Positions 3,006 through 62,141 of a stretch of 64,000 bases of DNA are shown one piece after another. Position 1 is the stretch's first letter, and every line of letters begins with the position of its first letter. The DNA comes from Notolepis coatsorum (lineage: Eukaryota > Chordata > Actinopteri > Aulopiformes > Paralepididae). The notes under the pieces are model-generated. The model worked only from the letters and a program-made list of their open reading frames with translations, searched no databases and was not told the DNA's origin. The stretch covers positions 124,291,604-124,355,603 of the forward strand of contig OZ020592.1 in the NCBI GenBank assembly GCA_963971535.1, read 5' to 3'. A program made the translations under genes and the position numbers.

Positions 3006-3785
3006 GTGAAAAAAGTTAGTCTGGAGCCCTGGTCCATGCAGGATATAAGAGTAAAGAGAGGAGCAGATGTGGCTTCAGACCACCACCTTGTCGTAGCCAG
3101 CCTGAAGCTGAAGCTGAGAAAGAACTGGATGTCGGCACATACAACACGACACAGGTACAACACAGCTTCCTTGAAAGACGCCAGTAAGCTGGAAGAGTTC
3201 AGAGTAACACTCTGCAACAAGTTCCAAGTTTTACAGGAGCTGTTGGAAGAGGACGAGTGCACCCTGGAGAACAGTTGGAAGGAGATAAAAGAGGCAGTAA
3301 CGTCTACCTGCCAGGAAGTTCTTGGCCCCAAGAAGCACCAGCACAAGGAGTGGATCTCAGGGGACAGTCTGTAAAAGATCCAAGAGAGGAGGGAGAAGAA
3401 GGCGGCAGTGAACAACAGCCGGACAAGAGCAGAGAAGGCCAAGGCACAAGAAAGGTATGCAGAAGGAAACAAGCTAGTAAAGAAGAGCATCAGAGCAGAC
3501 AAGCGAAGGTATATGGATGACCTGGCAACAGAGGCAGAGCAAGCAGCAAGAGAGGGGAATATGAGAGAACTGTACAACATCACCAAGAATCTGGCAGGAA
3601 AGTACAGCAAACCAGAACGACCTGTGAAGGACAAAGAGGGAAGACCGATAACAACGGGAGAGGAGCAACAGAAGAACAGATGGATGGAGTATTTTGAAGA
3701 ACTTCTAAACCGGCCAGCACCACAGAACCCACCAGACATCGCACAGGCTGACAGACCTACCCATAGCTTGCAACGCACCAACTAG
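3003..3785 (+). pseudogene. LINE endonuclease C-terminus and linker
   Basis: Resumes after the inserted segment with VKRGADVASDHHLVVASLKL, the C-terminal SDHH catalytic region of EEP endonucleases. A charged linker follows, rich in K, R, E and Q ([16 protein letters not shown]), as found between endonuclease and reverse transcriptase in LINEs. Frame changes near 3375-3410 and near 3770 separate it from its neighbours. Confidence 0.75.
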
Positions 3786-5268
3786 GGAAGAAATTAGGAA
3801 GGCTATCAAGCAGCTGAGGAACGGAAAGGCTGCAGGACCAGACAACATCCCTGCGGAGGCACTGAAGTCAGATATAGAAACCACGGTGAAGATGCTCCAC
3901 CCACTCTTCATGAAGATATGGGAGGAAGAAGACGTGCCAGGAGATTGTAAAGAGGGCTATCTCATCAAGATCCCAAAGAAAGGCAATCTTAGCAATTGCG
4001 CAAATTACAGAGGGATCACACTGCTATCAGTGCCAGGGAAAGTTTTTAACAGAGTCATCTTGAACAGGATGAAGGACCTCATCGATGCACAACTCCGCGA
4101 TGAGCAAGCTGGTTTCCGCAAGGACCGATCCTGCACAGACCAAATTGCAGTGCTGCGCATCATCGTGGAGCAGTCGATAGAGTGGAACTCGCCCCTGTAC
4201 ATAAACTTTGTGGACTATGAGAAAGCCTTTGACAGCCTAGACAGAGAGACCCTCTGGAAGCTTCTCCGACATTACGGGGTGCCGACCAAGATTGTTTCCA
4301 TCATCAGGAACTCCTATGAGGGACTGACATGCAAGGTGGTTCACGGAGGGCAGCTCACAGAGGCATTCCAAATGAGGACCGGGGTCAGACAAGGTTGTCT
4401 GCTCTCGCCCTTCCTCTTCCTGCTGGCCATTGACTGGATAATGAAGACCTCCACAGCACAGAGAAGGTATGGGATTCAGTGGACACCTTGGACGCAACTG
4501 GACGACTTGGACTATGCTGACGATTTGGCACTACTGTCGCACACCCAACAACAGATGCAGGAGAAGACCAACAACGTGGCATCGACTTCCGCGCAAGTGG
4601 GACTCAACATCCACAAAGGCAAGACTAAGATCCTCAAGACCAATGCAGCAAACAACACCAACGCAATCATGCTGGATGGCGAGGCTTTGGAAGAAGTTGA
4701 AGCCTTTACCTACCTTGGCAGTGTTATTGACAAGCAGGGCGGCACAGATGCTGACATTAGAGCACGAATAAGGAAAGCACGTACAGCATTCGTGCAATTA
4801 CGGAACATCTGGAGCTCAAAAGAACTGACTTCCAACACCAAAGTCAGATTCTTTAACACCAACGTCAAGGCAGTCCTACTATACGGAGCAGAGACGTGGA
4901 GAACTACAGCTGCAACCATCAGGAAAGTGCAGGTCTTCATTAACAGCTGCCTGCGGAAGATCATCCACATCCGATGGCCAGACACCATCAGCAACTGCGA
5001 ACTCTGGCAGAGAACAAACCAGCTGCCCGCAGAAGAAGAAATTAAGAAACGCAAATGGCGCCACACCCTGCGACAAGCCCTAACATGGAACCCGCAGGGC
5101 AAGCGGAAAAGGAGCAGCCCGAGAAACACCTGGCGCAGAGACCTGGAGGCAGACACCAAGACCATGAAGATGACCTGGAACCAACTGGAGAGAACAGCTC
5201 AAGACAGAGATGCTTGGAGATCACTTGTTGACGGCCTATGCCCCAGAAGGGGTAGCAGGCGTAAGTAA
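3775..5268 (+). CDS. LINE reverse transcriptase (RTE-like)
   Basis: An open frame running through all reverse transcriptase blocks: [70 protein letters not shown] (first catalytic Asp), [20 protein letters not shown] and [12 protein letters not shown] (catalytic YADD). A thumb-like region with [13 protein letters not shown] follows, and a basic C-terminus ends [14 protein letters not shown] at a TAA. It copies the element RNA at the nicked target. The conventional ATG at 3886 lies inside the domain; the frame opens further upstream. The RT part looks intact although the endonuclease part is broken, so the locus as a whole is unlikely to be active. Confidence 0.85.
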
Positions 5269-10735: not shown

Positions 10736-11012
10736 TTAAAGTGGAGATGAAGCAGTGAGCAATGTGATCCTAGTTTGTTTGTTGTGTACCTTGTGTAAGA
10801 CAGGGTTCTATAATCAAATGTGAAATCTATCTTATTTGTCTGAAAAATATAATATAATATCCCTGTTTTCAACATGGGCGCCGCCATTTTGTTGCTGACG
10901 TCATGGCTGACGTCATGCCGGGGGTTGGGTGTATACACTCTGGTTAGCTGCCTATATTGAATGGGTCAGTCAGCAAATAAAATGTTGCCTACAAAACAAC
11001 GGGACCGCGGTG

Positions 11013-11258
11013 GTTCTGTTTGTATTGCTCCTGGCTGTTCAAACTAATTTTACCATGTGAGAGAGAGGAAAGTTGGTTAATTTCCACAAACTACCAGTGA
11101 AAAAAACAGTGTTGTCGACATGTTGGCTCGGGCTGGCTGCACTCAGGCGGCGCGACCAGCCTGTTGGACAGGGAAGGAGGATCTGCAGCGAACACTTCAT
11201 TGCCTCGGATTATGTTGTTGGGGTGGGATGTTTGTCCAGAAGACCACTAATCAGCTGA
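11013..11258 (+). pseudogene. Decayed THAP-domain exon, left arm
   Basis: The reading shows the THAP C2CH pattern: CIAPGCSN near 11026, then NFHKLP, CWLGLAALRRRDQ and the terminal RICSEHFIASDY. THAP domains bind the transposon ends in P and Kolobok transposases. A stop after CSN and a frame change before NFHKLP break it. There is no DDE-type catalytic part downstream. It could be a captured host THAP exon, but the TTAA-flanked setting favours a Kolobok origin. Confidence 0.75.
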
Positions 11259-11384
11259 AGCCGGACGCGGTTCCCTCGGTCTTCGACAGACAGACCGGCG
11301 TTAGCTCTCGGGAGCGATCGCTAGCTAGTTGGCACCAGCCGGGGCCCGGCGTTAGCTCTCGCTAGCTAGCGTTAGCAACCGGAG

Positions 11385-11560
11385 CGTCGCGGAGCATTCA
11401 GCCTGCTGGCTACCTAGACCCACTTCAACCAGCGTCGCGGAGCATTCAGCCTGCTGGCTACCTAGACCCACTTCAACCAGCGTCGCGGAGCATTCAGCCT
11501 GCTGGCTACCTAGACCCACTTCAACCAGCGTCGCGGAGCATTCAGCCTGCTGGCTACACA
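11385..11560 (+). repeat. 48-bp tandem repeat inside the left palindrome arm
   Basis: Units start CGTCGCGGAGCATTCAGCCT at 11385, 11433, 11481 and 11529. The right arm has only one such unit, so the array expanded after the palindrome formed or collapsed on the other side. Confidence 0.9.
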
Positions 11561-11690
11561 AGCTGTGTAGCCAGCAGGCTGAATGCTCCGCGACGCTCCG
11601 GTTGCTAACGCTAGCTAGCGAGAGCTAACGCCGGGCCCCGAGAGCTAACGCCGGTCTGTCTGTCGAAGACCGAGGGAACCGCGTCCGGCT

Positions 11691-11920
11691 TCAGCTGATT
11701 AGTGGTCTTCTGGACAAACATCCCACCCCAACAACATAATCCGAGGCAATGAAGTGTTCGCTGCAGATCCTCCTTCCCTGTCCAACAGGCTGGTCGCGCC
11801 GCCTGAGTGCAGCCAGCCCGAGCCAACATGTCGACAACACTGTTTTTTTCACTGGTAGTTTGTGGAAATTAACCAACTTTCCTCTCTCTCACATGGTAAA
11901 ATTAGTTTGAACAGCCAGGA
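11691..11920 (-). pseudogene. Decayed THAP-domain exon, right arm
   Basis: Mirror copy of the exon at 11013-11258: the same NFHKLP and RICSEHFIASDY motifs, and the same in-frame stop and frame change. Sharing the lesions means the arms were duplicated or homogenised after the exon had decayed. Confidence 0.75.
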
Positions 11921-12362
11921 GCAATACAAACAGAACCACCGCGGTCCCGTTGTTTTGTAGGCAACATTTTATTTGCTGACTGACCCATTCAATATAGGCA
12001 GCTAACCAGAGTGTATACACCCAACCCCCGGTATGACGTCAGCAACAAAATGGCCGCGCCCATAATGCTAAATGCTTCAGAAATGTACACAACAAATCGT
12101 TTTTTCTTAGAAACTGCTTATTTTTATAACGTGACTTCTTCTGTGGCTTATCTAAATACTAATGTGATGCTATGAATATGTATTTATCGCACTGCTTCAT
12201 TTCCACTTTAAGCACATATCTGTGCGTACGTCACGTTGATACATGAGGGCCCAGGCTTCTTTCCTAAGGGTGAAAAACAATACACTTGAATTGAAATTGG
12301 AATGAAGCTTTGCATGTCTGTAGTCATATTACGGAGTCATGACCCTAAAAAAACTGAGTTTG

Positions 12363-18775: not shown

Positions 18776-21700
18776 TCAATATGTGAGACGATCAGGAGGC
18801 CTAGTTACCCTCACCGGGTACCTCCTACTAGTCTCTGTAGATGTTCTGGTTGGCTCTAAGTCAGCTGCCTCAGTGTGAGTGACTGAGGGACCGGTTAAGG
18901 AGGACTCCTGTCCGCCCGCTGGGGAAACGGTCACTGGATCTGGCATAAGGACTGTCGTAGTTTGTGCCAATGGGGCTGGTGGTATAGGCTCCCCTGAAGT
19001 GAGTAGCATCGGGTCACAGGCCCGCATCTGTTCTGTGTGGCGTTTCCAATGCCCCGAGCCTACCCCGACTGTGTAGGATACTGGCCCCTCCTGGGAGACC
19101 ACCACCCCTGGCATCCACTTATCCTCCCCCCGTCTATAATCACGGACCAGCACCGGGTCTCCCGATGCAAAGTCCTTGTCTCTGGCGAACTGGGCTCTGC
19201 GATCCTGCTGGACTGTCTGAGCTTGATCCACCACCGCTGCCACACTGGGTTTGAGAAGGTCAAGGCGGGAGCGGAGCCGGCGGCGAAGGAAAAGCACCGC
19301 CGGAGACTCATTAGTCGTGGCGTGGGGAGCATTTCTGTAGCTGAGCAGAAACGAATCCAGTCTGTGCTGCACTGTCGTCGCTCCTCGGGACTCTTTCAAT
19401 GAGCGTTTTAGTGTCTGTACAAAGCGCTCCGCTTGACCGTTCGTGGCCGGGTGGAAAGGAGCAGAGCGCATGTGCTTCACTCCATTTCCCTTGAGGAAAG
19501 ACGCAAACTCATATGAAGTAAACTGCGGCCCATTGTCGCTCACCAGAACTTCTGGCAATCCATGGCGACTAAACAACCCCCGCAGTACTTGAATAGTCTT
19601 AGCGGTTGTGGTGGAGCCCATCAGCTTCACTTCTGGCCACTTGGAGTGAGCATCCACCACCACCATAAACATATGACCCTCAAAGGGCCCTGCAAAGTCC
19701 ACATGTATCCTCTGCCACGGAGTGCCTGGCCACGGCCAGGAGTGAAGTGGGGAGAGACCGGGAGATCTCTGGTTGCGCTGACACGACTGACACACTCTGG
19801 CCTGTTGTTCTATTTGAGCGTCAATCCCCGGCCACCAGATGTAACTACGAGCCACACCTTTCATTTTAACTACTCCCGGGTGGCCTGCATGCAGCTCCTG
19901 TAGTAATTGGGGTCTCAATTTTGGAGGCACAATCACCCGATTTCCCCACAACAAACACCCCTGTACCACTGAGAGTTCATCTTTTCTTGTGTAATAGGGA
20001 GTCAGTGCACTGTCCTGCCCTTGCGCCACAGGGAAGTGTCCTGACAAACACATGTCCATCACCTGAGCGAGTACTGGATCATACCTCGTTTCCTTACGAA
20101 TGTCAGTGCTGCCTACTGGCAGCGATTCAAGGTGATGTATCAGTACCGTATCCACTGAACCTGGTTTGTCCTTATGCTCAACCGGCAGTGGCAGGCGTGA
20201 GAGGCCGTCCGCATTGCCATGTTCCGTCGCCCCCCTGTACTGAATCGTGTAGTTGTGAGCAGCTAATATTAGGGCCCATCGCTGCAGTCTAGCAGCCGCC
20301 ATCGATGGGATAGCTTTACTGGGGCTCAATATTGTAGTCAGGGGCCTGTGGTCTGTGAGTAGGGTAAAATGGCGCCCGTACAGATAGGCGTGGAACTTGC
20401 GCACGCCAAATATGATCCCCAGGGCCTCCCTCTCAATCTGAGCATAATTTTGCTCCGCTTTACTCAATGTCCTGGAGGCAAACGCTATGGGCCTCTCTTG
20501 ACCTCCCGGCATCACATGCGAAATCACCGCGCCCACGCCATAGGGCGAGGCGTCACACGCCAGTATGATTGGCAGTTGGGGATTGTAATGTGTCAACACC
20601 CTCTCCGAGAGCAGTTGATCCTTAGCTGAGCAGAAAGCTTTCCCACACTCCTGTGACCATTTCCATGGTGTCCCCTTATGTAGTAACGCGTGAAGGGGGC
20701 TGAGTGTCGTTGCCATGTCCTGAACAAACCGACCATAATAATTAATTAATCCCAGGAAGGAGCGCAGCTGGCCCACATTTGTCGGGGCTGGGGCCTCAGC
20801 AATCGCCCTGAGCTTTTCTGGGGATTTATGAAGGCCCGTGGCGTCAATATAATGTCCCAGGTATTCCAGTGAGTCCTTGAAAAACTCACATTTCCCTCGC
20901 TGCGCCCTGAGACCAAACTTCTCCAATCGACCCAGCACCCCCTCCAGATTCTTCAGGTGCTCTGCATCATTACACCCAGTTACCAATATGTCATCCAAAA
21001 AGCAGTGCACATTGGGAAGCCCCTGGAGGACTTGATCCATAATACGCTGAAAGATAGAGGGCGCTGACGTTATGCCGAAAGGCAGTCGGTTATAGCAGAA
21101 CATCCCCTTGTGCGTTGTGATGGTGAGATATTTGCGTGAACTCTCCTGCACCGGCACCTGCAAGTATGCGTGAGCCAGATCCAGCTTGCTGAACCGCTGC
21201 CCCCCGCTAGCGAAGCAAACATATCCTCTATCCGGGGTATTGGATAATGTTCAGCACAGAGGGCCGGGTTCACCGTCACTTTAAAATCCCCGCAGATGCG
21301 CACACTGTCATTCTTCTTAATGATAGGCACAATGGGGGTTGCCCATTCACTGAACTGCACAGGCGAAATTACATTTAGCAGTTGCAGGCGCTCTAGCTCA
21401 GCGTCCACCTTTGGCCTAAGTGCATAGGGAACCACCCGGGCCTGACAGAACTTCGGCTGATGTTCGGGCTTGAGTGTCAGAGCTACCTCAAAGCCCTTCA
21501 ATGTCCCCAGTTCATCCTTAAATACATTGGCATGCCCCTTTAACACTGCTTCCAGCGTGTTCCCCTGCATGCGTTGTCCAGATCTAACTGTTTTTATGGC
21601 TCTCCAGTCCAGTCTCACTCTTCTCAGCCACTCACGGCCGAACAAGGGGGGTGCATCGCCTTTCACCACATATAGTGGGAGCCGTGCTTGGTCTCTGTTC

Positions 21701-22943
21701 ATTTGAACCTTCACCTTTACCACCCCCACTGGTGCGATCACTTCACCTGTATATGTTTTCAGCAGGATGTGGGTGTGGCGCAGGCGAATATGACTGAACT
21801 TTTCACTATACATTTTCTCTGATATAAGTGAAACGGCTGCCCCCGTGTCAAGCTCCATGTCAATCATTTGCCCCTCCACTTTTGGCCTAACCCAAATCAC
21901 TGATGAGGCTGAACCGCCCTGCTGAGACACATCACCTGCTGCATCCACCCTGTGCAGGGCTAATTCCCCATCTGAATCAGACCCTGTATCACTCTGCATC
22001 CCCCTGGTGTTCATCTTATTTATCCGCCTTTTTGACCTTTCTCCCCCTCTGTCTCTTTGCTCCCATCTTGTGTTAATCCCCCCTCTGTCTCTTTGCTCCC
22101 ATCTTGTGTCACTTGCTGCTTTATTTTCCTGCTTGCTCTCTCTGCATGTACGTGCAATATGGCCTTTCTTACCGCAACGGTGACAGGCCTGGTCCTTGAA
22201 GAAACAGCCACTCTCCACATGATTCGTCCTCCCACACCGGGTGCATTTTCTCCCAGGTGTAGATGAGAGAGACATCGCATTCACTTTTACAGAGCTGCTG
22301 AGCTGTTGTGCCTCCCTCGCCACCGTTTCCATAGCAACGGCTATTTCCACCGCTCTGTGATAGGTGAGAGCATTCTCGGTCAATAGTCTCTTCTGTATGG
22401 ACTCGCTGAGGAGACCACACACGAACCGGTCCGGTAACGCGTCTGACAGGTACGTGCCAAACTCGCAGTGCTCCGACAGCTTCTTCAAATCCGCAATATA
22501 CTGGGCTATTGTCTCCCCCTCCGATTGATGTCGTTTATGGAAACGGAATCTTTTTCTGCAATCACAATGGGCTTGGGAGAAAAATGGCTTTGCAGTGCTT
22601 GCACAGTCTGAGTATAAGTTATATCCCCCGGTTTATCCGGAGCAATCAAACTGCGCAGTAACCCGTATGTTGTTGCCCCTATTAGACTCAAAAACACCGG
22701 AAGCCTCTTCTCATCGGAAATGTCATTTGCAGCCACAAAATGTTCAAACCGTTCCACATAAGTCGGCCACTGCTCCGTCGATTCCTCAAAAGCCACGATA
22801 TGCCCGATGATATCAGCCATCCCTCTGTGTGATTGTCCCGCGGCAGATCCGCCGACGTTAGCCCCTTCGCTAACCGGCGTCAGTGTAGATTCCTCTTCCA
22901 CTCGTTCCGTCATCAAACAAACGTTAGCGTGGATTCTTTTCAA
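18776..22943 (-). pseudogene. Gypsy gag-pol region (fossil)
   Basis: Parts in minus-strand order: a gag segment, two CCHC-type zinc knuckles (the second CHRCGKKGHIARTC), an aspartic protease (DTGAAVSLIS), a reverse transcriptase with the FLDDILVTG catalytic box, RNase H (LLTDHRPL), and an integrase with a zinc-binding region (CQSCQRN) and a DDE core (SDNGPQFTSYEF), followed by a GPVSYTV-type C-terminal region. Domain order and motifs match K02A2.6-like Ty3/gypsy pol. It is not intact, so no working product is expected. Confidence 0.88.
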
Positions 22944-35282: not shown

Positions 35283-35507
35283 GCCATCCCTGACTACCTC
35301 AGAGCACCACAGACCACTGCTTCCTTTAAAAGAGGACTTAAAACATACCTCTTCACGAAAGCCTTCCCTTAGTTTTAACCTTTTTATACATGCCTTGTGT
35401 GTTTTATCCCTTTTTTTATGCTTTCATGCCTTGTTCTTTTTAATTGCCTATGTTTTTAAAGTCTATGTTTTACGCTGTAGCACTGTAGTCGTCATGTTTC
35501 TGTTGTA
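35283..35507 (+). mobile_element. LINE 3' end, right half
   Basis: CCATCCCTGACTACCTCAGA, AAGAGGACTTAAAACATACC and TCTTCACGAAAGCC: the standard end of fish L2-type ORFs, continuing the fragment at 33371-33523. Confidence 0.65.
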
Positions 35508-36229
35508 CAGGACACTGGACTCACCATCGCTCCATCTCTCTGTTCTACAGGATACTGGACTCACCATCGCTCCATCTCTCTGTTCTACAGGATACTGGGC
35601 TCACCATCGCTCCATCTCTCTGTTCTACAGGATACTGGACTCACCATCGCTCCATCTCTCTGTTGTACAGGACACTGGACTCACCATCGCTCCATCTCTC
35701 TGTTCTACAGGATACTGGACTCACCATCGCTCCATCTCTCTGTTGTACAGGATACTGGACTCACCATCGCTCCATCTCTCTGTTCTACAGGATACTGGAC
35801 TCACCATCGCTCCATCTCTCTGTTCTACAGGATACTGGACTCACCATCGCTCCATCTCTCTGTTGTACAGGATACTGGACTCACCATCGCTCCATCTCTC
35901 TGTTCTACAGGATACTGGACTCACCATCGCTCCATCTCTCTGTTCTACAGGATACTGGACTCACCATCGCTCCATCTCTCTGTTGTACAGGATACTGGAC
36001 TCACCATCGCTCCATCTCTCTGTTCTACAGGATACTGGACTCACCATCGCTCCATCTCTCTGTTCTACAGGATACTGGGCTCACCATCGCTCCATCTCTC
36101 TGTTCTACAGGATACTGGACTCACCATCGCTCCATCTCTCTGTTCTACAGGATACTGGACTCACCATCGCTCCATCTCTCTGTTGTACAGGATACTGGGC
36201 TCACCATCGCTCCATCTCTCTGTTGTACA
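35508..36229 (+). repeat. 40-bp minisatellite, ~18 copies
   Basis: The unit begins GATACTGGACTCACCATCGC and ends TGTTCTACAG (or TGTTGTACAG). It resumes for one unit at 37040-37081 after a hAT insertion. Because 40 is not a multiple of 3, one frame passes through all three readings and stays open for 349 codons; this is not evidence for a gene. Confidence 0.95.
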
Positions 36230-50907: not shown

Positions 50908-52861
50908 TGTTGAGGTTTGTAACCGACCCCAATCGCACAACACAAGACAGGTATGAGAGTAAGCCAAGAACTGGGCATTTATTGAATAACACAGAAAAGC
51001 GGCACTGTCCCTTTAAGGGAGAACACAAAAATACTGGAAACAGGGAAACAAGGGCAATGTGCCTTTAAGAGGCGAGCAGGCTAAGGGGAAGGCTTAGGGA
51101 GAACACAAAATACTGGAAACGAGAATTAGGGAAAATTGGCACTGTGCCTTTAAGAGGCGAGCAGGCAAAGGGGCTAAGGCTAAAGGACAGGGCCAGGGCA
51201 AAGGACAGGGCAGGAACAGGGACAACGGAGAGGGGAACAGGGACAGAGGCCCGCGGAGGCGGGCTGGAGACAGGGACAGAGAAAACAGGGTTAAGGCCTT
51301 GGACAGGGCGAGGGACAAGGGCACTGGAGAGGGGAACAGGGACAGAGGCCCGCGGAGGCGGGCTGGAGACAGGGACAGAGAAAACAGGGTTAAGGCCTTG
51401 GACAGGGCGAGGGCTAGAGCTGCTTACAGGGATGGAGTAGGAACGCGCAGGCTAGACGTCTGGAGGAGAGCGCGCCGGCTCGGAGAGACGCATCCTCCCG
51501 TAGAGAATTAGAGAGCGATGCGCGTCTGAAGTGGAGCGCGTCTGCTTGGAGAACGCGCCGGTTCGGAGAGCGCGCCGGCTCGGAGAGACACATCCTCCCG
51601 TAGAGAATTAGAGAGCGATGCGCGTCTGGAGTGGAGCGCGTCTGCTGTAGGAGCGCATCAGCGCGGAGTCTGGAGTGGTGCGCGTCTGGCGCGGGGTCTG
51701 GAGTGGTGCGCGTCTGCTTGGAGAACGCGCCGGTTCGGAGAGCGCGCCGGCTCGGAGAGACACATCCTCCCGTAGAGAATTAGAGAGCGATGCGCGTCTG
51801 GAGTGGAGCGCGTCTGCTGAAGGAGCGCATCAGCGCGGAGTCTGGAGTGGTGCGCGTCTGCTGTAGGAGCGCATCAGCGCGGAGTCTGGAGTGGTGCGCG
51901 TCTGGCGCGGGGTCTGGAGTGGTGCGCGTCTGCTTGGAGAACGCGCCGGTTCGGAGAGCGCGCCGGCTCGGAGAGACACATCCTCCCGTAGAGAATTAGA
52001 GAGCGATGCGCATCTGGAGTGGAGCGCGTCTGCTGAAGGAGCGCATCAGCGCGGAGTCTGGAGTGGTGCGCGTCTGCTGTAGGAGCGCATCAGCGCGGAG
52101 TCTGGAGTGGTGCGCGTCTGGCGCGGGTTCTGGAGTGGAACACTGGAATACCTCCCGTAGAGAATTAGAGAGCGCAGTACTGTGTCCCACTCCAGGCAAA
52201 ACGGCGACGGGCGGCGAAGGCTGGCACCTCGTCTCACGCCGGAGATGAAACAGCATCCAGAATACAGAAACAGAATACAGATAGGGAATCTCCCATAGGA
52301 GCTTACAGATAGAGATATGATACGGATACGGAATAGAGAGAATCTCCCGTAGGAGCTTACAGATAGAGATATGATACGGATACGGAATAGAGAGAATCTC
52401 CCGTAGGAGCTTACAGATAGAGATATGATACGGATACGGAATAGAGAGAATCTCCCGTAGGAGCTTACAGATAGAGAACGACCCGACAAGGACTGGGGGG
52501 AGATCCAGGTATTTAAAGCCCACTGGGGGCGCTAATTAGAACACACATCAGGTGCGTGAAGGTAATTGATACTTGACTAGAAGTGTGTGTTCGGCACGGA
52601 CCAATCAAACACATAATGAAAGATAGTCCAAGGGTGTGGGCTGCTGAAGAGCAGACGAGAGTAAACGAACGCGAGGGTGGGGGCTAGAGAGGTGAGGAGA
52701 CAGGGAATTAAAGGTCCAGGGAACAGGAATTAAAGGTCCAGGGAAGAGGCGAACCTCACAGTAACGACAACGCGAGGGTGGGGGCTGGTGAGGTGAGGAG
52801 ACAGGGAATAAAAGGTCCAGGGAACAGGAATTAAAGGTCCAGGGAAGAGGCGAACCTCACA
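50908..52861 (-). repeat. LARD-like 3' LTR
   Basis: 1954 bp. It holds internal minisatellites: a GAGCGCGTCTG/AGCGCGCCGGCTCGG block (about 51460-52130) and a ~57-bp unit around AGATATGATACGGATACGG (52300-52470). Confidence 0.85.
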
Positions 52862-52974
52862 GTACTCCCCCCTCCACGGGAGCCACCGGGCGACCCAAAA
52901 ACACAGACAGAGGGGCAGGGGACATAACCAAGGCAACAAACAAAAAATTGGGCCATGCTAGCGGGGAAGCTACA

Positions 52975-54320
52975 CCCAAAGTGGGACTAGCAATGGGACA
53001 GGGTAGCTGAGGGGTAACTAGGGTAGCTGAGGGGCAACTAGGGTAGCTGAGGGGTAACTAGGGTAGCTGAGGGGTAAACTAGGGTAGCTGAGGGGTAACT
53101 AGGGTAGCTGAGGGGTAACTATGGTAGCTGAGGGGTAACTAGGGTAGCTGAGGGGTAACTATGGTAGCTGAGGGGTAACAAGAGGAGCTGAGGGGTAACT
53201 AGAGGAGCTGAGGGGTAACTAGAGGAGCTGAGGGGTAACTAGAGGAGCTGATGGGTAACCAGAGGAGCTGAGGGGTAACTAGAGGAGCTGAGGGGTAACT
53301 AGAGGAGCTGAGGGGTAACTAGAGGAGCTGAGGGGTAACTAGAGGAGCTGAGGGGTAACTGCCAGGGCACTGATAGCTACAGGGCCTATGCTAGCTGTAA
53401 TGCTACATTAACATAGAGGCTGCGCTAGCTGCCGGAGCTAGGCTAGCAGACAGGGCTGGACCAGCATGAGAGATCAAGCTAGCTGGAAGGACAGTCCTAG
53501 CTGTGGGGAAACTGACCTTGCTAGCTGAAGGGGCAGTCCTAGCAGAGGGAGAAAACTGACCTTGCTAGCTGAAGGGGCAGTCCTAGCAGTGGGGAAACTG
53601 ACCTTGCTAGCTGAAGGGGCAGTCCTAGCAGTGGGGAAAACTGACCTTGCTAGCTGAAAGGGCAGTCCTAGCAGTGGGGGAAAACTGACCTTGCTAGCTG
53701 AAGGGGCAGTCCTAGCAGTGGGAGATACTGACCTTGCTAGCTGAAGGGGCAGTCCTAGCAGTGGGGAAAACTGACCTTGCTAGCTGAAGGGGCAGTCCTA
53801 GCAGTGGGAGAAAACTGACCTTGCTAGCTGAAGGGGCAGTCCTAGCAGTGGGGAAACTGACCTTGCTAGCTGAAGGGGCAGTCCTAGCAGTGGGAAGGCT
53901 ACACAAAAAGTGGAGGCCATGCAGAGGGACCGGGTTAGCTGCCTGGGCATGGCTAGCTACAGGGCCTATGCTAGCTGCAAGGGCTGCAATAACATAGAGG
54001 CTGTGCTAGCAGCCGGGGCTAAGCTAGCAGACTGGGGCCATGCTGGTAGTAGAGGCCTGGCAAGCTGCAGGGGAGCTAACGAGGCTAACAGGGAAGCTAA
54101 CAGGGGAGTCAACAGGGGAACTAACAAAAGCTAACAGGGGAGCTAACAGGGGAGACTAACAGGCTAACAGGGGAGCTAACAGGGAAGCTAACAGGGGAGC
54201 TAACAAAGGCTAACAGGGGAGCTAACAGGGAAGCTAACAGGGGAGTCAACAGGGGAACAAACAGGGGAAACTAAACAGGGAAGCTAACAGGGGAGCTAAC
54301 AGGCTAACAAAGGACAAACT
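52975..54320. repeat. Interior of the LTR element: three minisatellites
   Basis: A ~20-bp unit TAGCTGAGGGGTAACTAGGG (about 52990-53360), a ~42-bp unit TTGCTAGCTGAAGGGGCAGT (about 53510-53895), and a ~12-bp unit GCTAACAGGGGA (about 54060-54305). All contain AGCTAA/TAGCT words. No coding frame. Confidence 0.9.
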
Positions 54321-54370: not shown

Positions 54371-56331
54371 TGTTGAGGTTTGTAACCGACCCCAATCGCA
54401 CAACACAAGACAGGTATGAGAGTAAGCCAAGAACTGGGCATTTATTGAATAACACAGAAAAGCGGCACTGTCCCTTTAAGGGAGAACACAAAAATACTGG
54501 AAACAGGGAAACAAGGTCAATGTGCCTTTAAGAGGCGAGCAGGCTAAGGGGAAGGCTTAGGGAGAACACAAAATACTGGAAACTAGAATTAGGGAAAATT
54601 GGCACTGTGCCTTTAAGAGGCGAGCAGGCAAAGGGGCTAAGGCTAAAGGACAGGGCCAGGGCAAAAGACAGGGCAGGAACAGGGGCAACGGAGAGGGGAA
54701 CAGGGACAGAGGCGGGCTGGAGACAGGGACAGAGAAAACAGGGTTAAGGCCTTGGACAGGGCGAGGGACAAGGGCACTGGAGAGGGGAACAGGGACAGAG
54801 GCCCGCGGAGGCGGGCTGGAGACAGGGACAGAGAAAACAGGGTTAAGGCCTTGGACAGGGCGAGGGCTAGAGCTGCTTACAGGGATGGAGTAGGAACGCG
54901 CAGGCTAGACGTCTGGAGGAGAGCGCGCCGGCTCGGAGAGACGCATCCTCCCGTAGAGAATTAGAGAGCGATGCGCGTCTGGAGTGGAGCGCGTCTGCTT
55001 GGAGAACGCGCCGGTTCGGAGAGCGCGCCGGCTCGGAGAGACACATCCTCCCGTAGAGAATTAGAGAGCGATGCGCGTCTGGAGTGGAGCGCGTCTGCTG
55101 TAGGAGCGCATCAGCGCGGAGTCTGGAGTGGTGCGCGTCTGGCGCGGGGTCTGGAGTGGTGCGCGTCTGCTTGGAGAACGCGCCGGTTCGGAGAGCGCGC
55201 CGGCTCGGAGAGCGCGCCGGCTCGGAGAGACACATCCTCCCGTAGAGAATTAGAGAGCGATGCGCGTCTGGAGTGGAGCGCGTCTGCTGAAGGAGCGCAT
55301 CAGCGCGGAGTCTGGAGTGGTGCGCGTCTGCTGTAGGAGCGCATCAGCGCGGAGTCTGTAGTGGTGCGCGTCTGGCGCGGGGTCTGGAGTGGTGCGCGTC
55401 TGCTTGGAGAACGCGCCGGTTCAGAGAGCGCGCCGGCTCGGAGAGACACATCCTCCCGTAGAGAATTAGAGAGCGATGCGCGTCTGGAGTGGAGCATGTC
55501 TGCTGAAGGAGCGCATCAGTGCGGAGTCTGGAGTGGTGCGCGTCTGCTGTAGGAGCGCATCAGCGCGGAGTCTGGAGTGGTGCGCGTCTGGCGCGGGGTC
55601 TGGAGTGGAACACTGGAATACCTCCCGTAGAGAATTAGAGAGCGCAGTACTGTGTCCCACTCCAGGCAAAACGCCGACAGGCGGCGAAGGCTGGCACCTC
55701 GTCTCACGCCGGAGATGAAACAGCATCCAGAATACAGAAACAGAATACAGATAGGGAATCTCCCGTAGGAGCTTACAGATAGAGATATGATACGGATACG
55801 GAATAGAGAGAATCTCCCGTAGGAGCTTACAGATAGAGATATGATACGGATACGGAATAGAGAGAATCTCCCGTAGGAGCTTACAGATAGAGATATGATA
55901 CGGATACGGAATAGAGAGAATCTCCCGTAGGAGCTTACAGATAGAGAACGACCCGACAAGGACTGGGGGGGAGATCCAGGTATTTAAAGCCCACTGGGGC
56001 GCTAATTAGAACACACATCAGGTGCGTGAAGGTAATTGATACTTGACTAGAAGTGTGTGTTCGGCACGGACCAATCAAACACATAATGAAAGATAGTCCA
56101 AGGGTGTGGGCTGCTGAAGAGCAGACGAGAGTAAACGAACGCAAGGGTGGGGGCTAGAGAGGTGAGGAGACAGGGAATTAAAGGTCCAGGGAACAGGAAT
56201 TAAAGGTCCAGGGAAGAGGCGAACCTCACAGTAACGACAACGCGAGGGTGGGGGCTGGTGAGGTGAGGAGACAGGGAATAAAAGGTCCAGGGAACAGGAA
56301 TTAAAGGTCCAGGGAAGAGGCGAACCTCACA
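54371..56331 (-). repeat. LARD-like 5' LTR
   Basis: 1961 bp, co-linear with 50908-52861 apart from small length changes in the repeat blocks. Confidence 0.85.
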
Positions 56332-56965
56332 GCTTTAACGTTACCTCTTGTGTCTATCTGCTAACGTTAACGTTAGCATTAGCATTAGGTAATAACCGGT
56401 TTAAAATGGATGATGATTACCTCACATTGTGTCTATTCTACTAGCATTAACGTTACTAGTACAAACAATCAATAGCGAGTTATATTGATCACGCTATGTA
56501 CACTAGCCATGGTCAAACGCAAGCACATTAGCACGTAAGCTAACAACAAGCTTTAACGTTACCTCTCGCGTCTATCTGCTAACGTTAGCATTAGGTAATA
56601 ACCGGTTTAAAATGGATGATGATTACCTCACGTTGTGTCTATTCTACTAGCATTAACGTTACTAGTACAAACAATCAATAGCGAGTTATATTGATCACGC
56701 TATGTACGCTAGCCATGGTCAAACGCAAGCACATTAGCACGTAAGCTAACAACAAGCTTTAACGTTACCTCTCGCGTCTATCTGCTAACGTTAGCATTAG
56801 GTAATAACCGGTTTAAAATGGATGATGATTACCTCACGTTGTGTCTATTCTACTAGCATTAACGTTACTAGTACAAACAATCAATAGCGAGTTATATTGA
56901 TCACGCTATGTACGCTAGCCATGGTAAAATGCAAGCACATTAGCACCTAAGCTAACAACAAGCTT
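56332..56965 (+). repeat. ~206-bp tandem repeat, three units
   Basis: Units begin GCTTTAACGTTACCTCT at 56332, 56550 and 56756, with CTAACGTTAGCATTAGGTAA and AATAGCGAGTTATATTGATC inside. The GCTTT at 56332 doubles as the LTR-element target. Confidence 0.9.
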
Positions 56966-59130: not shown

Positions 59131-61714
59131 TTAAAGCTGAGAGCAGACCAGACCAGAGCATCTTAAAGCTGAGAGCAGACCAGACCAGAGCAGACCAGAC
59201 CAGAGCAGACTTAAAGCTGAGAGCAGACCAGACCAGAGCATCTTAAAGCTGAGAGCAGACCAGACCAGAGCATCTTAAAGCTGAGAGCAGACCAGACCAG
59301 ACCAGAGCAGAGCATCTTAAAGCTGAGAGCAGACCAGACCAGAGCAGAGCATCTTAAAGCTGAGAGCAGACCAGACCAGACCAGAGCATCTTAAAGCTGA
59401 GAGCAGACCAGACCAGACCAGAGCATCTTAAAGCTGAGAGCAGACCAGACCAGAGCATCTTAAAGCTGAGAGCAGACCAGACCAGAGCATCTTAAAGCTG
59501 AGAGCAGACCAGACCAGACCAGAGCATCTTAAAGCTGAGAGCAGACCAGACCAGAGCAGAGCATCTTAAAGCTGAGAGCAGACCAGACCAGACCAGAGCA
59601 TCTTAAAGCTGAGAGCAGACCAGACCAGACCAGAGCATCTTAAAGCTGAGACCAGACCAGACCAGACCAGAGCATCTTAAAGCTGAGAGCAGACCAGACC
59701 AGACCAGAGCATCTTAAAGCTGAGAGCAGACCAGACCAGACCAGAGCATCTTAAAGCTGAGACCAGACCAGACCAGACCAGAGCATCTCAGAGCATCTTA
59801 AAGCTGAGAGCAGACCAGACCAGAGCAGAGCATCTTAAAGCTGAGACCAGACCAGACCAGACCAGAGCATCTTAAAGCTGAGAGCAGACCAGACCAGACC
59901 AGACCAGAGCATCTTAAAGCTGAGACCAGACCAGAGCAGAGCATCTTAAAGCTGAGAGCAGACCAGACCAGACCAGAGCATCTTAAAGCTGAGAGCAGAC
60001 CAGACCAGACCAGAGCATCTTAAAGCTGAGAGCAGACCAGACCAGACCAGAGCATCTTAAAGCTGAGAGCAGACCAGACCAGACCAGAGCAGACCAGACC
60101 AGACCAGAGCATCTTAAAGCTGTGAGCAGACCAGACCAGAGCATCTTAAAGCTGAGAGCAGACCAGACCAGACCAGACCAGAGCATCTTAAAGCTGAGAG
60201 CAGACCAGACCAGACCAGAGCATCTTAAAGCTGAGACCAGACCAGACCAGAGCATCTTAAAGCTGAGACCAGACCAGACCAGACCAGAGCATCTTAAAGC
60301 TGAGACCAGACCAGACCAGAGCATCTTAAAGCTGAGAGCAGACCAGACCAGAGCAGAGCATCTTAAAGCTGAGAGCAGACCAGACCAGACCAGACCAGAG
60401 CATCTTAAAGCTGAGAGCAGACCAGACCAGAGCATCTTAAAGCTGAGAGCAGACCAGACCAGACCAGAGCATCTTAAAGCTGAGAGCAGACCAGACCAGA
60501 CCAGAGCATCTTAAAGCTGAGAGCAGACCAGACCAGAGCAGAGCATCTTAAAGCTGAGAGCAGACCAGACCAGACCAGACCAGAGCATCTTAAAGCTGAG
60601 AGCAGACCAGACCAGACCAGAGCATCTTAAAGCTGAGACCAGACCAGACCAGAGCAGAGCATCTTAAAGCTGAGAGCAGACCAGACCAGACCAGAGCATC
60701 TTAAAGCTGAGAGCAGACCAGACCAGACCAGAGCATCTTAAAGCTGAGAGCAGACCAGACCAGACCAGAGCATCTTAAAGCTGAGAGCAGACCAGACCAG
60801 AGCATCTTAAAGCTGAGACCAGACCAGACCAGACCAGACCATCTTAAAGCTGAGAGCAGACCAGACCAGAGCATCTTAAAGCTGAGAGCAGACCAGACCA
60901 GACCAGAGCATCTTAAAGCTGAGAGCAGACCAGACCAGACCAGAGCATCTTAAAGCTGAGAGCAGACCAGACCAGACCAGAGCATCTTAAAGCTGAGAGC
61001 AGACCAGACCAGAGCATCTTAAAGCTGAGAGCAGACCAGACCAGACCAGAGCATCTTAAAGCTGAGAGCAGACCAGACCAGAGCAGACCAGAGCATCTTA
61101 AAGCTGAGAGCAGACCAGACCAGACCATCTTAAAGCTGAGAGCAGACCAGACCAGAGCATCTTAAAGCTGAGAGCAGACCAGACCAGACCAGAGCATCTT
61201 AAAGCTGAGACCAGACCAGACCAGACCAGAGCATCTTAAAGCTGAGAGCAGACCAGACCAGAGCAGAGCATCTTAAAGCTGAGAGCAGACCAGACCAGAC
61301 CAGAGCATCTTAAAGCTGAGAGCAGACCAGACCAGACCAGAGCATCTTAAAGCTGAGAGCAGACCAGACCAGACCAGAGCATCTTAAAGCTGAGAGCAGA
61401 CCAGACCAGACCAGAGCATCTTAAAGCTGAGAGCAGACCAGACCAGACCATCTTAAAGCTGAGAGCAGACCAGACCAGACCAGAGCAGAGCATCTTAAAG
61501 CTGAGAGCAGACCAGACCAGACCAGAGCATCTTAAAGCTGAGAGCAGACCAGACCAGACCAGAGCATCTTAAAGCTGAGAGCAGACCAGAGCATCTTAAA
61601 GCTGAGAGCAGACCAGACCAGAGCATCTTAAAGCTGAGAGCAGACCAGACCAGAGCATCTTAAAGCTGAGAGCAGACCAGACCAGAGCATCTTAAAGCTG
61701 AGAGCAGACCAGAC
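59131..61714 (+). repeat. 2.6-kb minisatellite (CATCTTAAAGCTGAGAGCAG)
   Basis: About 70 units of CATCTTAAAGCTGAGAGCAG plus 2-5 CAGAC pentamers and an AGAGC junction. Unit length is about 27-47 bp because the pentamer count varies. Long frames on both strands are by-products. Confidence 0.97.
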
Positions 61715-62141
61715 CACGGTCGCCACAGTCCAACACAACACTGTGGTTATTTATTTTAGTTTTTAATTATTTGTTCTTAGGCAGGCGGTGTGCAAACAGC
61801 CTCCACGTCGTTACATCCTCACAGTAGGCCTGACGTGCAAAGCGAGGATATGCAAAATGCACGTGTCAGATTTACTATATGCGCACCACGTACCACATCC
61901 CTCAGATTGTGCATGTTGTCCTGTCGCCTTCGGAGGGTAATCGGAGGGTTTTCATCAAACGGTGGCCTTTCACATCTCACGAGCGGTAGGCTAAGGGTGA
62001 CGGATCTTTAGTACGAATTAAATAACTGCCGTACCACATTATTGAGGCTCTTGCTCATGGTATTGATCCAGGCCAGTCATTTGATTGTGACTAAATGGTT
62101 GCGAAATGAAACAGGAACAGCTGGCATGTGCTTGTTGTTAA
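61715..62141. other. Unassigned stretch
   Basis: No repeat or gene recognised between the minisatellite and the piggyBac-like copy. Confidence 0.3.

Follow-up and report, generated by a model that had tools for sequence, protein, structure and literature searches.

Structure of the element

The window, i.e. the whole stretch of 64,000 nucleotides from Notolepis coatsorum analysed here, contains an element of 1,468 bp (positions 10740-12207) which is flanked by TTAA on both sides and carries AGTGGA at both tips (Table 1). Its two long inverted arms account for 687 + 500 of the 1,468 bp and thus make up most of the element, as defines a foldback. The left and right terminal inverted repeats (TIRs) agree in 17 of 18 positions and differ in one base; with up to three mismatches allowed, the TIR is matched twice in the window compared to 0.10 matches expected by chance, and none of 100 shuffled sequences reached two. 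The TTAA flanks, the 18-bp TIRs and the two nearly spacerless arms of about 690 and 500 bp, all described in the initial annotation from the letters of the window, are therewith borne out. Beyond the TIR the outer ca. 134 bp on the left and ca. 144 bp on the right have only a word of ca. 12 bases in common. Both ends carry TTTGTTGTGTAC (10778-10792 and 12082-12096) at unequal distances from the tip, which makes it a candidate for a transposase site. The arms are composed of inverted blocks of 421 nt (98% identity), 74 nt (100%), 34 nt (100%, with the 3-nt centre) and 31 nt (97%).

Table 1. Coordinates of the foldback element and its parts in the window.
Feature	Position	Strand	Remark
Target-site copy TTAA, left	10736..10739	.	
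Left TIR, 18 bp, AGTGGAGATGAAGCAGTG	10740..10757	+	same letters as left TIR of L098
Left end	10740..10873	+	likeness to right end restricted to TIR
Left arm, 687 nt	10874..11560	+	promoter-like piece, broken THAP exon, GC-rich linker, 48-bp repeats
Promoter-like piece	10874..10920	+	two TGACGTCA sites; short inverted copy at right end of L098
Left chimera junction	10920..10940	.	element positions 185-205 (+ 10735); directly after the two TGACGTCA sites
THAP exon remnant, left arm	11015..11286	+	broken by stop and frameshifts; significant Pfam match about 11076-11201
48-bp tandem repeat, 3.6 copies	11383..11557	+	in left arm
Palindrome centre, 3 nt	11561..11563	.	
Right arm, 500 nt	11564..12063	-	left arm inverted; one 48-bp unit
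THAP exon remnant, right arm	11663..11934	-	Pfam-significant part about 11748-11873
Right chimera junction	12009..12029	.	approximate, mirrors the left one
Right end	12064..12207	-	differs from left end
Right TIR, 18 bp, AGTGGAAATGAAGCAGTG	12190..12207	-	same letters as right TIR of L098
Target-site copy TTAA, right	12208..12211	.	

The piece with the two TGACGTCA sites is called promoter-like on account of these sites. A THAP C2CH exon had been annotated in each arm; a Pfam match is indeed obtained on both strands (24.6 bits, just over the cut-off of 23.9), but the exon is broken by a stop and frameshifts. The stop follows directly after CIAPGCSN, and CIAPGC and AVPSVF share one frame while FHKLP and ICSEHF lie in a different one. 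Because of this stop and the split frames the arm is non-coding as it stands. A functional THAP protein from the element is ruled out, the exact stop context being present in 52 of 58 distinct arms. Nor do the arms duplicate the DNA-binding exon only, as had been assumed, but the promoter-like piece together with the broken exon 1. In L094 (C1:261782466+), a foldback of the sister family described below, one arm contains an open THAP frame within an ORF of 332 aa (locus 1363-2358), which reads on through the 48-bp repeat in the form of peptide repeats of 16 residues and possibly specifies a THAP-only protein; the other arm also matches THAP.

Elsewhere the window contains a reverse-transcriptase-like frame of 519 aa (3709-5268, +), of LINE type by eye, and two frames of 824 and 520 aa (18776-22632, -; overlap 21070-21250), by eye resembling an LTR retrotransposon. 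A number of tandem arrays are present two times with matching units (51203-53360 and 54667-56332), at a distance of about 3.45 kb, which suggests a duplicated block. Further arrays consist of about 70 copies of a 37-bp unit (59140-61716) and of 18 copies of a 40-bp unit (35499-36229), the latter with all three forward frames open.

Copies and insertion sites

A search with the left arm against the 3.42-Gb genome of the same species returned 1,421 candidates, and the 40 scored among them, including the window's own place, all match at 99-100% over the whole query. At eight loci obtained from a search without selection for TTAA (the window's own place, L002, and seven elsewhere) both termini are adjacent to TTAA in every case, and the flanks differ. 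The aligned parts of these copies are 0-2 substitutions apart; 1,476 bp are identical in L002, L004 and L006, and internal deletions are found in L001 (25 bp), L005 (96 + 1 bp) and L007 (336 bp). The genome-wide search for the 18-bp terminus proposed in the initial annotation, performed with the exact 22-mer of TTAA and TIR, yielded 889 + 898 = 1,787 matches (reversed control: 0), which corresponds roughly to 890 elements provided that the ends pair. The TTAA duplications expected at other copies are accordingly present at eight of eight loci, and an empty site with a single TTAA adds to them: the joined flanks of the relative L045 match the same host repeat without insertion (L029), i.e. a paralogous empty site. 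In a second match of this kind (L006/L011) the empty copy reads GTAA; the third match (L058/L001) sits in a simple repeat and is little informative.

Long palindromes are generally known to mis-assemble readily, which would favour an inversion made by the assembly. We nevertheless consider this explanation practically negligible because near-identical copies exist at many other places, with the same centre recurring between different flanks and with a paralogous empty site for one relative.

The structure of the family was analysed in a sample of 39 elements (eight chosen by identity, twelve from terminus pairs on C1 and 19 out of another 20 pairs), from which L057 with two outward-facing termini had been removed before the count; of the 100 terminus places listed, most unpaired ends and the pairs at 125.7, 138.6, 138.8, 150.2, 155.6 and 159.6 Mb lie outside the sample. 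One left-type and one right-type end are present in 39/39, both arms are at least partly present in 38 (one is gone in E24) and both are long in 35, with total lengths between 901 and 2,076 bp including the TTAAs. The window family, as sampled here, inherits the foldback form. As the structure is common to the family (38/39 elements), the window copy did not arise from one recent hairpin-type transposition error, the origin suggested in the initial annotation. An asymmetric centre variant in E18 (C1:18350992-18353067) is opposite in orientation to that of L002, as if flipped between the arms. Recombination between the arms as a cause of centre inversion was considered and set aside, with E18 as the one clear case among 39 being too few to build on.

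A full-length partner with the same ends

A search of the genome with the THAP profile gave 4,181 candidates, of which 150 were scored and 30 loci were read. Eight of these contain close relatives of the arms, the THAP frame being open in seven and interrupted by a stop in L090. With a catalytic piece of L084 as query, 41 matches were obtained, among which 14 lie in frames of 380-640 aa, and a full-length element (L098+L099, hereafter L098) was found at C7:117084000-117091700. It measures 6,227 bp with its TTAAs and consists of TTAA, AGTGGAGATGAAGCAGTG, a 158-aa THAP exon, a second frame of 636 aa, AGTGGAAATGAAGCAGTG and TTAA. Its TIRs are those of the window element, even at the one base separating left from right. 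Exon 1 matches PF05485 with 56.5 bits over the entire profile (1-87/87), contains AVPSVF and is followed by a possible GT donor after GAG. In the 636-aa frame GDGRYD, ATDCH and HTGQLESLH were picked out by eye as candidates for the DDE catalytic domain and the H2CH motif of Kolobok transposases; Pfam gave only a sub-threshold RVT_3 match (14.6 bits) for this frame, and a PDB sequence search with the catalytic frame one unrelated match (E 0.66). A full-length Kolobok-type element, for which the initial annotation had recommended to look, is present; it combines the termini of the window element with a THAP exon followed by a catalytic frame. However, the interior of the window element does not derive from it, since the THAP exon of L098 is only 84% like the arms. 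PF20700 (Mutator) was also considered as the Kolobok catalytic family and discarded: it has 51 matches, and the eight loci read are without DNA similarity to the element, although five of the eight contain a 10-base word resembling the TIR.

When the first 830 bp of L098 were searched in the genome, 2,781 candidates were obtained, and the 40 scored comprise seven copies at 99-100% (L098 included), 27 at 89-96%, five of sister type at 87-88% and one partial copy. At the places of the seven young copies the THAP frame is open and the catalytic frame measures 548-637 aa; one matching autonomous copy, L098, was read in letters. The exact word at the promoter/exon junction of L098 has six matches, five at places of young copies and one at C6:139311823. 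Six L098-like 5' ends (91-92%) lie within about 125 kb at C44:21525899-21650332 and form a local autonomous-like cluster.

The window element has TTAA target sites and the AG terminus, which together with the RR form serves as the Kolobok terminus criterion in the part of PMC6004289 drawn on here, and L098 has the THAP marks (C2CH, P-W-F and an AVPTIF-like box). TTAA, AG termini and the THAP exon thus support the assignment as a Kolobok-type foldback at the level of sequence.

Different affinities of ends and interior

Compared with L098, the promoter-like piece and the THAP part of the window element agree at 343/408 positions, and the ends at 138/138 (left) and 146/147 (last 148 bp on the right), each including its TTAA. 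The arms of the window element are 83.7% identical to L098 and 91.1 and 91.4% to the autonomous-type elements L084 and L086 of a sister family. In this family, eight arms of six other copies reach 90.9-95.0%, the closest being L088 left (95.0%), L094 left (94.2%) and L093 (94.1%), while L079 (90.9%) and L088 right (91.6%) show no greater likeness to the window arms than L084 and L086 do. Two arms are present in L088 and L094, one THAP arm in L093. The sister family has different TIRs, AGGGGAGATGAAGCATTG and ...CATAG, with 373 + 414 exact matches. Its left ends are 90.6-92.8% identical to that of the window element in L084, L086, L093 and L094 and only 79% in L088, which is disturbed past about bp 95; its right ends are 84-87% identical, with L084 compared without its right end. 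Five pairs of sister TIRs, each spanning 1,222 bp with TTAAs and 5.2-6.1 kb apart from start to start, are located at C1:76002313-76025293 and are probably a tandem duplication.

The change of affinity can be followed along the left side. The window element agrees with L098 at 198/200 of element positions 1-200 and at 284/348 thereafter; with the sister foldback L094 it agrees at 113/120 of positions 1-120, at 52/78 of positions 121-200 and at 333/354 beyond. Inside the left junction L098 is matched at about 82% and L094 at 94%.

Trees were calculated with 11 of the 39 window-family elements, L090 being excluded from the tree of the ends. The arm tree unites the window family in one clade (support 100/98) with L098 outside, and places the window arms inside the sister foldbacks with weak support (86-88%). 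In the ends tree, L098 falls within the window family (95/97), nested among the foldbacks beside the GA type, and the sister family is separate (100/99). Each topology was rejected when forced on the other data set (AU test, p 0.00095, 0.003 and 7e-89; clades named once the distances had been seen), while a weaker constraint merely joining window family and L098 on the arm tree was not rejected (p 0.127). Since the ends equal those of L098 but the arms are sister-like, the window family is, as far as these alignments tell, a chimera in which an older foldback interior and young autonomous ends are joined just inside the promoter-like piece.

A time order becomes visible at the left end. An older state occurs in older foldbacks, for example E11, E16 and L055, and a newer one in the GA-type foldbacks, L053, E26 and L098; the corresponding 26-mers have 252 + 293 (older) and 239 + 255 (newer) matches. 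The first 100 places per 26-mer were located; they cover C1 and C4, where four of the older autonomous copies (27 at 89-96%) reside. Three of these four carry the older word exactly at element position 105 (C1:262283550, 91%; C4:4148145, 89%; C4:97427878, 91%), and none has the newer word among the places listed on C1 and C4. The fourth (C1:65116182, 92%) is absent from the places listed for either word and for the window and sister TIRs. As judged at this single left-end 26-mer, their TIRs set aside, older helpers resemble older foldbacks and the young L098 resembles young foldbacks. These data fit foldbacks following their helpers and are compatible with either direction of the last exchange.

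Homogenisation of the arms

Arm distances were determined without E24, L007, L042 and L051, which lack two long arms; merging of six elements with identical arm pairs reduced the 35 remaining to 29 distinct ones. Left and right arm of the same element differ on average by 0.87% (median 0.53%, maximum 5.7% in E26), compared to 3.69% between left arms, 3.47% between right arms (406 pairs each) and 3.61% between left and right arms of different elements. Minority alleles are present in both arms in 294 cases and in one arm only in 170 allele-by-element cases; 82 alleles are confined to a single arm. When the partners were shuffled in 1,000 trials, the number of both-arm alleles amounted to 81 on average and 152 at most; kinship of the elements inflates this contrast with the observed 294, yet not that of within- and between-element distances. 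Likewise, E16 and E20 have small deletions, and E11 and L049 a common 5-bp insertion, in both arms. The arms are homogenised by arm-to-arm conversion or an equivalent copying process. In the exception E26 (C1:23546336-23548260), one arm contains a 14-bp micro-inversion and other changes.

Proposed origin and alternatives

We are fairly confident in a joint reading according to which the element is a Kolobok-type foldback mobilised in trans that originated by template switching, obtained its ends by exchange and has its arms converted. It would be a non-autonomous cut-and-paste foldback whose transposase comes from full-length Kolobok elements in this genome that share its ends. A single origin of the foldback shape, in the sister family or earlier, is probable. 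A likely route might be copying during repair after excision in which the template was switched at an inverted repeat, short and promoter-like, close to each end: copying from one end, annealing to the other repeat copy and running inward would leave the promoter-like piece and exon 1 inverted. L098 contains a subterminal inverted repeat with blocks of 31 and 25 bp (96-97% identity), the outer edge of which coincides exactly with the start of the foldback arms (positions 139 and 1328). Judged from this anatomy and in parallel with the model for Galileo, both the template switch and the exchange of ends may have occurred at a repeat of the L098 type. At the same promoter-like anchor the foldback lineage would later have swapped ends with another autonomous lineage, perhaps repeatedly rather than a single time, and the arms would go on converting each other and thereby stay near-identical within an element. 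We tentatively extend this proposal, as a possibility rather than an expectation, to a foldback lineage that outlives its helpers because both ends are repeatedly swapped for those of a young autonomous Kolobok, while the palindromic interior is passed on by descent and arm-to-arm conversion keeps it uniform.

The different affinities might also be explained without any exchange, if the element were a plain foldback of the L098 family whose ends were kept by selection while the interior drifted. Left ends are fairly well kept across the families (L084, L086, L093 and L094 as given above), and L098 as sister of the window-family arms was not rejected. However, this scenario leaves the 90.9-95.0% likeness of the interior to sister arms next to ends that are not sister-like, as well as the conflict between arm and ends trees, without a reason, and it is weakened by the abrupt shift of affinity at element position 185-205; we regard it as improbable. 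The exchange itself might have proceeded in the reverse direction most recently, the young autonomous element taking over the ends of a foldback. One event would suffice for the nesting of L098 inside the foldbacks on the ends tree next to the GA type; against it, three of the four older autonomous copies hold the end state of the older foldbacks at the one left-end 26-mer, and the autonomous lineage had therefore such ends earlier. The reversed direction appears rather unlikely to us, though clearly less so than a history devoid of exchange.

A further alternative concerns the maintenance of the arms, which could be preserved as a source of hairpin RNA or as transposase binders regulating the Kolobok family, by analogy with Mu killer and the Galileo TIRs. 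Both arms carry the promoter-like piece and exon 1 of the transposase, one arm of L094 has the open THAP frame, and the strand of the window element folds into a near-perfect hairpin (-1116 kcal/mol over 1190 nt), as any such palindrome does; for Galileo, long TIRs with several THAP sites are reported in the portion of PMC3688188 considered. On the other hand, the arm is just 84% like the exon of the young partner, the 48-bp unit has no 8-mer in common with either end, and conversion alone accounts for the identity of the arms. A role of the arms as a source of double-stranded RNA would be possible; that they are maintained for regulation we hold to be very doubtful.

Relation to known transposons

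P elements generate 8-bp target duplications. Membership in the P/Galileo group was rejected, as duplications of 7 or 8 bp are absent and TTAA is found at eight loci and at the empty site L045/L029. The TTAA-specific piggyBac elements have CCY termini and a transposase without THAP; with AGTGG termini and a THAP-containing partner, the window element was not assigned to them either. Tetris and Tm1, which have long inverted arms, are likewise termed foldback transposons.

Among known Kolobok elements, the Kolobok superfamily and the T2-type MITEs of Xenopus share TTAA, the AG terminus and a THAP transposase (C2CH/PWF/AVP-F) and include both recently amplified copies and non-autonomous MITEs, according to the excerpt of PMC6004289 used. 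In the same excerpt neither foldback arms nor an inverted exon or an exchange of ends are described, the terms foldback and palindrome being absent, and, unlike the Xenopus element as presented there, L098 has exon 1 and the catalytic part in separate frames. Among the papers listed when open-access literature was searched for a Kolobok foldback or for exchanged ends, none concerns a Kolobok foldback, judged by title and abstract opening.

A close precedent is Galileo, a member of the P superfamily in Drosophila, for which the account in PMC3573991, in the parts relevant here, reports copies of the structure TIR1-F1-F1-TIR2 and a model of recombination and conversion. In its 2RT copies, internal sequence adjacent to TIR1 is duplicated in inverted form beside TIR2 and tandem repeats are found in the arms, and its X-E-X chimeras combine the ends of one subfamily with the centre of another. 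Galileo is described there with 7-bp target duplications and 170 copies studied, a functional transposase not being found, whereas the window family is flanked by TTAA, comprises about 890 elements with near-identical copies among them and has a partner whose ends match. The window family is accordingly a variant of a known foldback/chimera kind. In Mu killer of maize, a dominant locus silencing MuDR, part of a transposase gene and a terminal region are likewise present in an inverted duplication (PMC3440606, as far as excerpted). Mu killer is a silencing locus and the window family is mobile and of high copy number, a role as hairpin being possible in form only.

After Galileo, Kolobok is the second superfamily with THAP transposases whose foldbacks recruit end-adjacent sequence in inverted form, and the analogy suggests a common mechanism. 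The question how non-autonomous transposons outlast their transposases can be approached here, since the parasite coexists in one genome with young and older helpers and with a sister family, and the junction between the different ancestries of ends and interior is mapped. Helper-switching via exchange of ends thereby becomes testable. To judge by its sequences, the window family is young and abundant and appears to keep moving by means of the ends of a full-length transposon.
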